Notes under the pieces: generated by a model | What the model was told of the DNA's origin: nothing | The model's database searches: none | Seen by the model: only the letters and a program-made list of their open reading frames with translations | Made by a program: the position numbers and the translations under genes | Assembly: GCA_945896925.1 (NCBI GenBank) | Contig: CAMDEV010000004.1 | Coordinates: 1 to 39,715, forward strand | Length of the DNA: 39,715 bases | From: Auritidibacter sp. Marseille-P8566 | GTDB taxonomy: Bacteria; Actinomycetota; Actinomycetes; Actinomycetales; Microbacteriaceae | Reading direction: 5' to 3' | Shown here: piece after piece, positions 18,401-29,012 of the stretch | Numbering within the stretch: position 1 is the first letter of the stretch | Layout of the letters: every line of letters starts with the position of its first letter

Positions 18401-18712
18401 TTGGCCCAACCACAGGCAGTTACATCAGTTGAAGAATCCCCTCAACAAGAGCGTCGCTCACGTTTCATCAAGTACACAATTGCCATGGTTATCAGGGTTA
18501 TCTGCATCATTCTGGCCGTTGCAATCCCTGTGAGCTGGTTAACTTTTGTATTCGTAGCTGGAGCAGTCTTTCTCCCATATTTCGCAGTTGTTATTGCCAA
18601 TGCTCAAGGCCCAGGCACTGCTTCTAAGCGAGCACCTGTGGCTGAAGCGCCAACCCTGAGCATCACAGCAGATGCTTTTAGAACCCCAAGCTCTTCAGAT
18701 GATGGCAAATAG
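18401..18712 (+). CDS. DUF3099 family membrane protein
   Basis: 103 aa with two TM segments (AMVIRVICIILAVAIPVSWLTFVFVAGAVFLPYFAVVIANAQG); TTG start preceded by AAAGGAAAG; upstream of SURF1 as in many actinobacteria. Confidence 0.8.
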   Translation: MAQPQAVTSVEESPQQERRSRFIKYTIAMVIRVICIILAVAIPVSWLTFVFVAGAVFLPYFAVVIANAQGPGTASKRAPVAEAPTLSITADAFRTPSSSDDGK

Positions 18713-19496
18713 AGCCACTACAACTCGCTGGTTGACTTGGATTTCCTTGGCAACAGTGTTCGCCACTGCTTGCTGGTTTCTCTCCCAGTGGCAGTTTGCT
18801 AGAGCCGAAGAGGTTCAGAAAGCAAATGAAATAGTTCTGGCTAACTACGACCGCACCCCGGTAGCACTTGAAGAGTTACTCCCCCAAGAATCATCTTGGA
18901 ATAAGAAGATTGAGTATCGTCAGGTTAAAGTCTCTGGAAACTACTTACCTGAGCACACTTTCCTAATCAGGAATAGACCTAATTCCGGCTACCCAGGTTT
19001 TCTACAGCTTGTTGCTTTCAAAACAGATAGTGAGAGCATCATTTGGATTGAAAGAGGTTGGCTTCCAACTGGAAACAAACAGGACGCTCCAGATTTAGTT
19101 CCTAATGTGGATAACACTCATCGAGAACTCACACTTCGACTTCGTCCTACCGAACCGAAGCTTGATCGTGGCGCTCCAGCAGGTCAACTCCCAAGTATCG
19201 ACCTTGTCACAGCAAATGAAGGACTATCCGATTCTGTATATACCCAGGCATACGGTCGGCTTGTTTCCGAGTTCCCTGAACTTCCTGCCGGCGAACCAAT
19301 GCCTATGCCTGAACTTAACCAAGGAAATCACCTTAGTTATGCACTGCAATGGATACTCTTCGCGCTGATGGCTTTTGGTGCTGTTTACTGGACTATCAAT
19401 CAAGATAGAAGAAGAGCAGCAGGTTTAGCTCCTAAGAAACTCAAGTTCTTAACCAAAGATGCCGATGCGGAAGCTGAAGACAAACTCCTAGGTTAA
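18699..19496 (+). CDS. SURF1 family protein (cytochrome oxidase biogenesis)
   Basis: YRQVKVSGNYLPEHTFLIRNRPNSGYPGFLQLVAF...WIERGWLP..., NHLSYALQWILFALMAFGAVYW; start at ATG 18699 or 18702, not 18672. Confidence 0.9.
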   Translation: MMANRATTTRWLTWISLATVFATACWFLSQWQFARAEEVQKANEIVLANYDRTPVALEELLPQESSWNKKIEYRQVKVSGNYLPEHTFLIRNRPNSGYPGFLQLVAFKTDSESIIWIERGWLPTGNKQDAPDLVPNVDNTHRELTLRLRPTEPKLDRGAPAGQLPSIDLVTANEGLSDSVYTQAYGRLVSEFPELPAGEPMPMPELNQGNHLSYALQWILFALMAFGAVYWTINQDRRRAAGLAPKKLKFLTKDADAEAEDKLLG

Positions 19497-19502
19497 ACAA
19501 AA

Positions 19503-19526
19503 ATGACCGCACCGAAGTGCGGTCAT
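19503..19526. terminator. Bidirectional hairpin terminator between SURF1 gene and rhodopsin gene
   Basis: Perfect inverted repeat ATGACCGCAC-CGAA-GTGCGGTCAT flanked by ACAAAA and CTTT. Confidence 0.88.
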
Positions 19527-19538
19527 CTTTGCTACTAC

Positions 19539-20249
19539 TTAGTCCTTCTTGAATGCCTTAAGAGCAAAGATTCCAAAACCAACCTTGTTCACAACATCTG
19601 CAATCACGTAGATGATTGCAGCTGAACAAACTGCAAGTTTCACTGTCTCCGCATCAGAGTTGTTCAGCTCCAAGATCTCCTGGATTGCTGTGCCAATTGG
19701 GTAAACCATCCAACCGAAGATAACGAACTTCTTCATGTTTTCAACAGCAGCCTTAACAGCAACTGTCCCCTTTGTTGGCTTTAGTTGCCAGAGTGTGTAT
19801 GCGATGTATACCCACGCTGCTGATGAGATCACGAAGTTGACGACGTTACCGGCAGAACCTGCAACACCAATCTCACCGAAGTATCCTGTGACAATCATTA
19901 CGATGTCGGCTAGTACCAAGCGGTATGTCAGCCCCTTTTCAGCGCCAGCAAGACTTGCAATCAAACCAAACTCAATCAATAGCAATGGAGTGGTTAGCAC
20001 CCAGTCGAGATATCGGACTGGCATGGTGTTGGCAATAAGTGAAACATCGCCTGGGAATGGGAAGGCAACCATGTCCTTCATTTGCCAATACAAGATGGCA
20101 GCAATAAAAGTAATTAGAGCAGCGTATGTTGCGCTGGTACGACCTTCACCCTTTAGTTCACCACGTTCAAGTACGAAGTAAAAAGTTCCAGCTGCCATAG
20201 CGACAAAGCCAAGCATGAACATGGCCTGTGTGAGAGTTAGTAGATCCAT
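19539..20249 (-). CDS. Microbial type-1 rhodopsin, predicted outward proton pump (proteorhodopsin-like)
   Basis: 236 aa, 7 TM; helix C RYLDWVLTTPLLLIEF (D82/T86/E93, Leu at the spectral tuning site), helix G IADVVNKVGFG with retinal Lys222; helix D/E GYFGEIG and WVYIAYTLW. Confidence 0.97.
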   Translation of the reverse strand: MDLLTLTQAMFMLGFVAMAAGTFYFVLERGELKGEGRTSATYAALITFIAAILYWQMKDMVAFPFPGDVSLIANTMPVRYLDWVLTTPLLLIEFGLIASLAGAEKGLTYRLVLADIVMIVTGYFGEIGVAGSAGNVVNFVISSAAWVYIAYTLWQLKPTKGTVAVKAAVENMKKFVIFGWMVYPIGTAIQEILELNNSDAETVKLAVCSAAIIYVIADVVNKVGFGIFALKAFKKD

Positions 20250-20310
20250 TTATTAGTTCCTTTCGGGTAACTTCCTTTTCAACCCTATTGGCACTACTTA
20301 GGAAATGTGT

Positions 20311-21909
20311 TTAGGAAAGAACAATCAAGTCGCGGTAGCCTTCGTTCCAAAGGTCTTCCTGACCATCTGGCATAACTAGAACACGCTCAGGATTTAGTGC
20401 ATCGACAGCACCGACATCGTGTGAAACCAGAACCACTGCGCCGGTAAATGAGGCCAATGCACCGAGAATCTCTTCGCGGCTAGCTGGGTCAAGGTTGTTG
20501 GTCGGTTCATCTAGAAGAAGCACGTTAGCTTTAGAGACCACCAGAGACGCTAGAGCTAATCTCGTTTTCTCTCCACCGCTTAGAACTCCCGCAAGTTTGT
20601 TGACATCGTCACCGCTGAATAGGAATGAACCCAATACTTTTCTTGCATCAGTATCGGCAAGCTCTGGAGCAGCGCTTTGCATATTCTCAAGAACTGTCTT
20701 GGTGACATCAAGAGTTTCGTGTTCCTGAGCGTAGTAACCAATCTTGAGCCCGTGACCTGGATCGATGGAACCCGTATCAGGACCCTCTACTCCTCCAAGA
20801 ATTCTCAACAGTGTTGTCTTACCCGCTCCGTTTAGTCCAATGATGACAACCTTTGAACCTCGGTCGATTGCGAGATCAACTGCGGTGAAGATTTCTAATG
20901 ACCCATAACTCTTACTGAGATTGTGCGCAAACAGTGGTGTCTTGCCACAGGCCTGTGGCTCCGGGAAGCGAATCTTCGCAACCCTGTCAACTTCTCTGAC
21001 ATCATCAAGGCCGCTGAGAAGCTTCTCTGCTCTTCTAGCCATCTGGTGAGCTGCTGATGCCTTAGATGCTTTAGCACCGAACTTGGCGGCTTGGAGTTGC
21101 AGAACGCTTGCCTTCTTTTCAGCAGTTGCTCGTTCGCGTTTTCGTCGCTCTTCGTCAGACTCACGTTGCTTTAGATACTGCTTCCAACCCATGTTGTAAA
21201 TGTCGATGACAGCTCGGTTGGCATCCAAATAGAAAACTCTGTTGACTGTTTCTTCGACGATTTCAATATCGTGACTGATGACTATCAGACCGCCTTGGTA
21301 GTTCTTCAAGAAATCCCTCAGCCAAATAATGCTGTCGGCATCTAGGTGGTTAGTTGGCTCATCGAGGATCATGGTGGTAGCTGCGGAGAAAAGAATTCGA
21401 GCAAGCTCAATTCTTCTTCTTTGACCACCAGAGAGGGTTCCAATTTCTTGGGCTAAAACGTTTGGCTTCAAACCTAAGTTAGAAGCGATAGAGGCAGCCT
21501 CTGCTTCAGCAGCGTAACCGCCATTGGACTCAAACTGCGCCTCTAAGCGCTCATAACGAGCCATCGCGGCTTCATAGACCTTCTCATCAACTGAGGCCAT
21601 CTCTTGACGAGTTTGCTCGAGTTTTCTCATGATTGTTCCTAATCCTCTGGCATTGAGGATTCGATCTGAAGCTAATTCATGGATGTCCCCGGTTCTTGGG
21701 TCTTGAGGTAGGTAGCCAATCTCCCCAACACGATCGATAGTTCCTGCACTGGACTGGAAATCGCCTGCAATAACCTTGGTCAAAGTAGTCTTACCAGCAC
21801 CATTACGACCGACGAGACCCACCTTGTCCCCCTTAGACACCTGGAATGTTACCCCAGACATTAGGACTCTTGGACCAATCGTGATCTCAAGGTCACGCAC
21901 GCTAATCAT
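20311..21909 (-). CDS. ABC-F family ATP-binding protein (translation factor type)
   Basis: Two ABC domains: GLVGRNGAGKTTLTKVIAG ... LSGGQRRRIELARILFSAATTMILDEPTNHLDADS and GLNGAGKTTLLRILGG ... LSGGEKTRLALASLVVSKANVLLLDEPTNNLDPAS. Start MISVRDLEITIG (21909) preferred over 21939. Confidence 0.95.
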   Translation of the reverse strand: MISVRDLEITIGPRVLMSGVTFQVSKGDKVGLVGRNGAGKTTLTKVIAGDFQSSAGTIDRVGEIGYLPQDPRTGDIHELASDRILNARGLGTIMRKLEQTRQEMASVDEKVYEAAMARYERLEAQFESNGGYAAEAEAASIASNLGLKPNVLAQEIGTLSGGQRRRIELARILFSAATTMILDEPTNHLDADSIIWLRDFLKNYQGGLIVISHDIEIVEETVNRVFYLDANRAVIDIYNMGWKQYLKQRESDEERRKRERATAEKKASVLQLQAAKFGAKASKASAAHQMARRAEKLLSGLDDVREVDRVAKIRFPEPQACGKTPLFAHNLSKSYGSLEIFTAVDLAIDRGSKVVIIGLNGAGKTTLLRILGGVEGPDTGSIDPGHGLKIGYYAQEHETLDVTKTVLENMQSAAPELADTDARKVLGSFLFSGDDVNKLAGVLSGGEKTRLALASLVVSKANVLLLDEPTNNLDPASREEILGALASFTGAVVLVSHDVGAVDALNPERVLVMPDGQEDLWNEGYRDLIVLS

Positions 21910-26745: not shown

Positions 26746-27651
26746 ATGCCACGAAAGGCAATGTTTTTGTTGAATGCTATTCTCGGCCCAGCCAGATTGA
26801 AGCTCTATGTCTGGGCTTCCCTAGTCAGCCAGATTCTTATTGTTGTAACTGGTGGTGCAGTCAGGCTAACTGGTTCAGGTCTTGGCTGCCCGACCTGGCC
26901 TGAATGTGAACCTGGTTCCTACACCAATGTTCCAGAATTAGGCATTCACGGAGTTATCGAGTTCGCAAACCGACTGCTCACCTTCGTGCTTTTGCTAGTT
27001 GCGATCCTCACCTTCCTAACCATCATCAGATTGCCTAAGGCAGAGAAGTTTGGTTTAGTTTGGCCCGCCTTTGCCTTAGGGCTTGGAATCGTCGCTCAGG
27101 CAATCATCGGAGGTATCACAGTCCTAACCGGTCTAAATTCCTGGATTGTTGGTGCTCACTTCCTAGTTTCAGGGGTTCTCATCGCCATCGCTGTTGTACT
27201 GGTATGGCGTTTTTACGCCGAATGGAGCTTTGAAGCAAATAAGACTATAAAGCTACTCAACCTAATTTCTTTCCCTATCGGAGTATTAGCGATTGTTATC
27301 GGTGTCATAGTTACTGGTTCTGGCCCTCACGCAGGAGATGCTGAAACACCTAGAAACGGCCTCAACTCCGATCTTCTGGTTCACATTCACTCCTACCCTG
27401 CATACATCCTTCTGGGACTAGTTCTTCTTCAACTCTTAGTCCTCCACAGAACATCAGCACCTCGCTTTGCTCTCAAAGCTGGTTACGTATTCCTAGGACT
27501 TCTTGCCATGCAGGCAGCAATTGGAATTCTTCAGGTAAGAATCGGATTACCTGTTGCTCTAGTTGCTCTTCACATGTTTGGTGCTTGCCTCATCATGAGT
27601 TCTCTCACTCTGCAAATGCTTATCTCTAGAAACTGGCTAGCAAAGAAATGA
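26746..27651 (+). CDS. ctaA: Heme A synthase (COX15/CtaA)
   Basis: TGGAVRLTGSGLGCPTWPECEPGSY, EFANRLLTFVLLLVAI, GVIVTGSGPHAGD, HIHSYPAYILLG. Start could be 26746 or 26761. Confidence 0.95.
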   Translation: MPRKAMFLLNAILGPARLKLYVWASLVSQILIVVTGGAVRLTGSGLGCPTWPECEPGSYTNVPELGIHGVIEFANRLLTFVLLLVAILTFLTIIRLPKAEKFGLVWPAFALGLGIVAQAIIGGITVLTGLNSWIVGAHFLVSGVLIAIAVVLVWRFYAEWSFEANKTIKLLNLISFPIGVLAIVIGVIVTGSGPHAGDAETPRNGLNSDLLVHIHSYPAYILLGLVLLQLLVLHRTSAPRFALKAGYVFLGLLAMQAAIGILQVRIGLPVALVALHMFGACLIMSSLTLQMLISRNWLAKK

Positions 27652-29012
27652 GCGTTATCTTTTGGTTTCGCAAGGATCTAAGACTTCAGGACAATGAAGC
27701 CTTAGTTGCTGCGAGCAAAGAATCGAAAGATGTTTACCCGGTTGTTCTAGTGAACCTCGCAAACTACGAAACTTTAGAAGGCATCAGACAGCACAGCCTG
27801 ACCGAATCCTTCAAAGCGCTGGATGCCTCTATTGGAAACAAGCTAAGCGTCAAGACCCTCCAAGGTTCAGAGGATGCAGGTAAAAAGCTTGTTGCTGCAG
27901 CGAATGCAGTTTCAGCAGATTTTGTATTTGCTATGAAGCGATTTGATCCTGAAGGCGTTGCAGAGCAGAGCGCTGTAGGTTCGGCTCTATCTAGTGCTGG
28001 TGTTCAACTCAAGTTAATTGGGTCTGCCTATGCAGTTGAGCCGGGCACTGTGAGAAAACCAGATGGCACTAACTACCGTGTATACACACCGTTCTTCAAC
28101 AACTGGAACCCGCTCAGCAACCAAGCACCTTTTGAACTTGATGTCAAGGCCATCAACTGGCTGCAGCTTTCAGATTCTGAGTCAATTCCAACTCCTTCCA
28201 AGGACTCTCCTATCAAGGTAATTGCTGGTGAATCTTTTGCCCTTAGAACCTTTGAGAGATTCCGCAAGCGAGCACTTGTTAAATACAGCGATGACCGTAA
28301 TCGCGCGGATCTAAGCGGAACTTCGCACCTATCGCACGCTCTAGCGCACGGTGAGATTCACCCTAGAACTCTCTTAGCTGATCTTGGAAGTGACGAAGGT
28401 GCTTGGGTGTTCCGCAAGGAGATTGCTTGGCGCGAGTTCTATGCAGACGTACTCCACCACTATCCGAATACCTTAGATGACTACTACGAACCTAAGTTCA
28501 AAAAACTCAGGTATGACAGTGGTGCTATTGCAGAAGAGAGATTCCAAGCTTGGTGTGAAGGTAAAACCGGTTATCCAATGGTTGATGCAGGCATGCGCCA
28601 GTTGGTTACCGAAGGCTGGATGCACAACAGAGTTCGCATGATTGTTGCCTCGTTCCTAGTCAAAGATCTACACATCGAATGGACTAGAGGTGCAGAGTTC
28701 TTTGAGAAGCACCTAAGTGATTTTGATCCTGCATCAAACTCGCACGGTTGGCAGTGGACTGCGGGTTGTGGAACTGATGCATCACCTTATTACCGAATCT
28801 TTAATCCGGTGATGCAGGGATTGAAATTTGATCCTGATGGCAACTATGTTCGCAAATATATTCCAGAACTTAGACATCTAACCGGTGCTGATGTTCATGA
28901 ACCTTGGGAAAGATTTGATGGATATAACCTCGGTTACCCAGATCAGATTGTTGATCACTCTGCCGAGAGAAATGAATCGCTAGCCAGATTAGAAGAACTG
29001 AAACAGGCTTAA
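27648..29012 (+). CDS. phr: Deoxyribodipyrimidine photolyase (cryptochrome/photolyase family)
   Basis: [130 protein letters not shown]. Confidence 0.97.

Follow-up and report, generated by a model that had tools for sequence, protein, structure and literature searches.

The acceptor site of proteorhodopsins is a His-Asp pair that has been stated to be fully conserved, and it has been proposed that this pair stores a proton and explains the failure of proteorhodopsin at low pH; His-to-Met proteorhodopsin mutants regain both the M state and function under these conditions (PMC12002130). For ESR, the corresponding mutation H57M raised the pKa of Asp85 from below 2 to 6.3 and made the colour strongly pH-dependent, from 517 to 565 nm, as summarized in a review (PMC10743670). 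The ESR donor mutant K96E still pumps, with M decay slowed approximately 10-fold (PMC8387761).

The lineage described here is already partly known from Pontimonas and Rhodoluna (PMC6106888, PMC12422013). A Pontimonas protein was placed by Cho 2018 in an 'Exiguobacterium subcluster', and its host has retinal synthesis genes (PMC6106888). This protein was expressed by Inoue et al. 2021, who measured its absorption at 538 nm; the four proteins for which that study showed ion transport were red-shifted by at least 20 nm, and the Pontimonas protein was not among them (PMC7979833). West 2025 described an 'ESR Type-1' clade from several Rhodoluna species, for which lateral acquisition was proposed; this clade matches the present lineage in genus and in grouping with ESR, but the main text of that study gives no residue analysis, locus or empty-site evidence for these genes (PMC12422013).

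The rhodopsin gene and its locus

The window, meaning the whole stretch of DNA analysed, is 39,715 nucleotides long and belongs to a lake bacterium (Rhodoluna) carrying a gene of this little-studied rhodopsin branch. An initial annotation had described a proteorhodopsin-like proton pump, apparently without an antenna fenestration, and had proposed a distinct or horizontally acquired lineage. What it observed was confirmed and its interpretation was partly supported, but it had overlooked the absence of the acceptor His. The coordinates that it gave for the gene are correct, and the strand is the minus strand, on which the ORF is intact, encodes 236 aa and begins with an ATG at 20249; the plus strand of 19539-20249 is closed by many stops. 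The features of the locus are:

19539..20249, minus strand: rhodopsin gene (P0001), of an ESR-related lineage of Microbacteriaceae
20311..21906, minus strand: ABC-F ATPase gene, flanking the insertion site upstream
18672..19496, plus strand: SURF1 gene for cytochrome oxidase assembly, convergent with the rhodopsin gene and flanking the insertion site downstream
19505..19524, minus strand: likely rhodopsin terminator, a perfect 8-bp stem with a 4-nt loop followed by ATTTTTGTTT
20280..20291, minus strand: upstream element CCAATAGGGTTG, a possible promoter of the gene's own

The likely terminator was recognized by eye and is absent from the consensus-scan list, the promoter and terminator scan having returned nothing above chance. 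Most carriers have a recognizable form of the CCAATAGGGTTG element, NNAATAGNGT, after the stop of ABC-F and ahead of the rhodopsin start.

The predicted protein matches Pfam Bac_rhodopsin with 139 bits against a cut-off of 24.6. Eleven Rhodoluna-type relatives are 62-93% identical to it, and the dN/dS ratio of 0.03-0.07, which is approximate because dS is near saturation, indicates that the gene is under strong purifying selection. An AlphaFold model built from a 12-sequence alignment had a mean pLDDT of 87.5 and a pTM of 0.84, and its best structural match in the PDB was the ESR crystal structure (4hyj; 41% identity, TM 0.84), with MAR, NM-R1 and GPR next in order. Since relatives of this identity exist, the dN/dS ratio is low and the model matches ESR best, a chance origin of the reading frame is excluded.

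A DNA photolyase/cryptochrome-family gene is located in the window at 27648-29012, adjoining COX15 and heme o synthase genes, and a heliorhodopsin (284 bits) is encoded on another contig of this genome (G000:C12:339-1106). Actinorhodopsin was not found in this assembly, which is 71% complete.

Relationships, distribution and gene history

Similarity searches placed ESR closest to P0001. The phmmer scores were 148 bits for ESR, 99 for NM-R1, 90 for GPR and 55 for xanthorhodopsin, and a clade profile gave 185 bits for ESR, 120 for NM-R1, 108 for GPR and 94 for MAR. The initial annotation had noted segments that look closer to proteorhodopsin than to actinorhodopsins; the nearest known relative of the protein is ESR (148 vs 90 bits, and 185 vs 108) and not GPR. 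In the phylogenetic trees the Rhodoluna sequences formed one clade (100/99-100) outside the xanthorhodopsin/actinorhodopsin group, which was itself separate at 99/94 to 100/100 in three trees. With the smaller sequence set this clade was sister to ESR at 94/89 and in 97% of bootstrap trees; with the wider set the same position was not rejected (AU p 0.445), but long branches meet there and these trees single out no exact sister group. For MAR, the comparison consisted of its profile and fold scores and of its His51, as stated in the literature.

Membership of the classic actinorhodopsin clade was rejected (AU p 9e-6 with the first set, 4e-73 with the wider set), so that the protein belongs, as had been suggested, to a lineage distinct from actinorhodopsin. 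A position as sister to GPR alone was also rejected (AU p 0.027 and 0.013, respectively). Viral, phage or plasmid carriage was likewise discarded: viral contigs and phages yielded no relative, and the plasmid matches were only about 28% identical. The NDQ motif known from sodium pumps occurs in two related rhodopsins, L006 (from a genome in the same order) and L075.

When the clade profile was run against 400 genomes of the family, it recovered 31 more full-length members from six further genera, scoring 240-332 bits, compared with about 90 bits or less for other rhodopsin types. The lineage is therefore Microbacteriaceae-wide, in at least seven genera, and is distinct as the initial annotation had it but not unique to this genome; the same search overturned the idea of a lineage confined to Rhodoluna. 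The class and phylum samples contained no clade member outside the genus. One complete genome has a broken clade copy (G1124:C1:1091028-1091608) in two pieces, with residues 107-143 missing, which is either decaying or frameshifted. The Pontimonas salivibrio rhodopsin (C3B54_11643 / WP_104913209.1) is very probably the clade member at L162.

Within Rhodoluna, the gene lies between ABC-F and the convergent SURF1 in 13 genomes, including a contig-end fragment in G035 and a copy split over two contigs in G044. In 27 relatives without the gene, the ABC-F and SURF1 alignments end -3 to 123 bp apart, and the empty site in the close relatives G040 and G032 is a gap of just 14-16 bp. Copies in two other genera (L162, L155 and L158) are found near PNPase; in L162 and L155 the opposite neighbour is an M16 peptidase. 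The single insertion site, the empty sites in relatives and the PNPase location in two other genera make the horizontal acquisition of the Rhodoluna copies plausible, and the source was likely a member of the same family. No compositional sign of recent transfer was detected, the GC content being 0.46 for the gene vs 0.46-0.49 for its flanks.

On an ABC-F gene tree the carriers require two changes, one for a main clade and one for G023, which falls among non-carriers. The simplest history is a single family-internal insertion in Rhodoluna, followed either by loss or by spread through recombination of the flanks. The G023 copy (L122) is the most divergent of the genus at 62% identity and has a GC content of 0.57; it occupies the same ABC-F/SURF1 site in a host outside the main carrier clade, and reflects either a gene that was present early and lost many times or one that was transferred by way of the flanks.

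Blh and RPE65 were absent from the 13 Rhodoluna carriers searched, with Blh positive controls from one other genome of the genus and four more distant actinobacteria. Host-made retinal was rejected for these carriers on this ground, and function of the rhodopsin in them therefore needs retinal from outside. Most carriers have a phytoene synthase, but none was found in the 71% complete genome studied here. West et al. described blh as rare and reported retinal auxotrophy (PMC12422013). An opsin working independently of light, for example in phospholipid scrambling, would suit hosts that cannot make retinal and are without Blh and RPE65, and an actinorhodopsin does scramble lipids without retinal or light (PMC12805836). 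Scrambling alone, however, would not require the retinal Lys, the counterion Asp and the pocket Trp and Tyr residues, all of which are invariant in the clade, and Pontimonas has genes for retinal synthesis (PMC6106888) and a protein that binds retinal (PMC7979833). We consider such a role very improbable and favour a retinal-binding pump.

Pump residues and the antenna site

The residues on which a pumping function would depend were located by alignment:

20004..20006, minus strand: Asp82, Schiff-base counterion and predicted proton acceptor
19992..19994, minus strand: Thr86, middle of the DTE motif
19980..19982, minus strand: Leu90, at the GPR L105 spectral tuning site (green)
19971..19973, minus strand: Glu93, predicted cytoplasmic proton donor (Lys96 in ESR)
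19584..19586, minus strand: Lys222, retinal Schiff-base lysine

The proton-pump anatomy and the green tuning residue are present as initially described: Asp82, Thr86, Leu90 and Glu93 align with D97, T101, L105 and E108 of GPR, and Lys222 aligns with the Schiff-base Lys. The features of a proteorhodopsin-type pump extend to the whole clade, with the Asp and Thr of the DTE-type motif, Arg79, Tyr54, the helix-G Asp (Asp218) and Lys222 kept in all 39 members and the donor Glu in 38. The remaining member, L173, has Ser at the donor position (LLLVSF), a natural DTS variant. No demonstration of pumping was found in the literature searched for any clade member. Judged by these residues and by its relationships, P0001 is probably a retinal-binding, green, outward proton pump, ESR-related, with a lone Asp as acceptor and without an antenna.

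Two positions bear on the antenna:

19833..19835, minus strand: Phe139, aligned with the fenestration residue Gly156 of xanthorhodopsin; Phe in all 39 members of the clade
19689..19691, minus strand: Thr187, at the position of the carotenoid-site Tyr207 of xanthorhodopsin (PMC12308411); Thr in 38/39

A carotenoid site is marked chiefly by Gly at xanthorhodopsin position 156 and secondarily by Tyr207 (PMC12308411), and neither residue occurs in P0001. The alignment of Phe139 with F152 of GPR, proposed at the outset, was reproduced, and Gly156 of xanthorhodopsin falls on the same residue. With the fenestration filled by Phe139 and Thr in place of the carotenoid-site Tyr, P0001 would bind no carotenoid antenna, and by sequence the no-antenna reading of the initial annotation holds across the clade.

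It could be argued that an antenna is bound in another way, given that the proteorhodopsin-family pumps KR1 and EINA29G6 (PMC12308411) and NM-R1 bind xanthophylls, so that family membership alone does not exclude one. However, NM-R1 has Gly at the fenestration, as does HeimdallR1, and Kin4B8 no longer binds zeaxanthin when its Gly153 is exchanged for a bulkier residue (PMC12308411); with Phe at the first site in every clade member and Thr or Val at the second, this possibility appears remote, and an antenna-free pump is preferred.

Gly occupies the fenestration in RlActR and in the eight Rhodoluna actinorhodopsin loci compared, and nine genomes carry both an actinorhodopsin with the antenna-type Gly and the Gly-less pump. 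Such two-pump Rhodoluna species suggest that, in a common freshwater group, the two rhodopsins divide their work according to light colour, carotenoid supply or pH. The same actinorhodopsins (L013, L014, L016, L018, L019, L022, L026, L027 and RlActR) have Asp for the near-universal Glu in GYxGE, and Phe at the Tyr207 position. Trp is found at the fenestration in the xanthorhodopsin-like actinobacterial pumps L077, L079, L080, L083, L084 and L085, a second way to close the antenna site.

The acceptor position, the release side and known pumps

The clade departs from other pumps at the following sites in the extracellular half of the protein:

20091..20093, minus strand: Leu53 codon, aligned with His57 of ESR, His75 of GPR, His62 of RlActR and His62 of xanthorhodopsin
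19617..19619, minus strand: Ala211, seven positions ahead of the helix-G Asp; Ala in all 39 members vs Glu, Gln or Asn in 37/37 other pumps
19677..19682, minus strand: Gln190-Glu191, a polar pair peculiar to the clade, where helix F ends on the extracellular side; both positions hold only Q or E in all 39 members

Position 53 is Met in 24 clade members, Leu in 12 and Phe in three, and His, which occupies the equivalent position in all 37 of the other DTE/DTK pumps compared, is found in none (0/39). In ESR, GPR and RlActR this His is the partner of the acceptor Asp. The His-Asp acceptor of proteorhodopsins is thus missing from the entire clade, with Leu, Met or Phe in its place in 39/39. Two further positions differ on the release side: the Tyr or Phe of other pumps at position 187 is replaced by Thr in 38 of the 39 members and by Val in one, and the Thr, Ser, Asn or Ala at position 215 is replaced by Val or Ile in all 39. 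Glu189 of MAR, which is part of the MAR release path (PMC12002130), would map to Ala211, judged by its spacing from the helix-G Asp.

These residues lead us to infer an outward pump whose sole acceptor is Asp82 and whose donor is Glu93. Each half of this scheme has separate experimental backing, the donor in ESR K96E and the acceptor in the His-to-Met mutants. Light would isomerize the retinal on Lys222, and the Schiff-base proton would then pass to Asp82, which may act alone as in bacteriorhodopsin because its usual His partner is Leu, Met or Phe. Glu93 would reprotonate the Schiff base from the cytoplasmic side, and release would probably proceed via Arg79, Tyr54 and Asp218, with Gln190 and Glu191 possibly standing in for the polar residue that gave way to Ala211. 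The altered release side could make the protein a weaker pump.

The loss of conserved polar groups in the extracellular half would also fit a light sensor, in which the missing His and release-side polar residues slow the cycle and allow signalling to a partner. The neighbours, ABC-F and SURF1, however, include no transducer or signalling gene. Sensors usually lose the donor carboxylate, which 38 of the 39 clade members keep. Cho 2018 cites a report of an Exiguobacterium rhodopsin that pumps poorly and serves as a sensor, but found no transducer in Pontimonas (PMC6106888). A sensory role is therefore improbable, and we return to a pump with Asp82 as the lone acceptor.

The protein may be an ordinary ESR/proteorhodopsin pump in which Leu, Met or Phe is neutral and only the pH tuning differs, with no new mechanism; the core pumping residues are all kept, single His-to-Met mutants are functional (PMC12002130) and ESR K96E pumps (PMC8387761). 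The replacement of His is, however, fixed in seven genera and accompanied by the changes of Tyr to Thr and of Glu/Gln/Asn to Ala and by a new Gln/Glu pair, which looks co-ordinated, and we think an ordinary pump somewhat unlikely. The wider proposal is that the clade, in at least seven Microbacteriaceae genera, has exchanged the His-Asp acceptor for a lone Asp and rebuilt its release side in a bacteriorhodopsin-like convergence, and so would pump over a different pH range from other proteorhodopsins; we regard the chances of this as even. By analogy with the mutants, the pH dependence of P0001 is predicted to differ from that of ESR and GPR. The direction is left aside, since reports on loss of the His diverge (a higher pKa in ESR vs restored low-pH pumping in proteorhodopsins) and the sign of the effect is not safely predictable.

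An absent acceptor His with an altered release side was not found described in the literature searched, a search that most subscription papers fell outside. The clade offers a natural test of whether the proteorhodopsin His is needed for pumping: a His-less lineage under strong purifying selection, with engineered counterparts in ESR H57M and K96E, makes the His-Asp claim testable in a protein tuned by evolution.

Among known systems, RlActR (9hfk), which comes from the same genus, and xanthorhodopsin (3ddl) are likewise DTE proton pumps, but they belong to a separate clade, with a fenestration Gly and with His62. GPR (7b03) shares the DTE motif, the tuning-site Leu and the Phe at the fenestration, and MAR (5jsi) shares the DTE motif, but proteorhodopsins have the His-Asp pair (PMC12002130) that the clade lacks. 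The Pontimonas protein at L162 has the same key residues, with a non-His residue (Met) at position 53 and Phe at 139, and differs in that its gene adjoins PNPase and the M16 peptidase, not ABC-F and SURF1. ESR (4hyj) has in common with P0001 the counterion Asp, the Thr, the tuning-site Leu, the retinal Lys and a fenestration without Gly, where ESR has Tyr147 and P0001 has Phe139. The Lys donor and counterion-interacting His57 that characterize the ESR family are replaced by Glu93 (Lys96 in ESR) and Leu53, and the polar residue of helix G by Ala; P0001 is best read as a natural counterpart of the engineered ESR mutants H57M and K96E.
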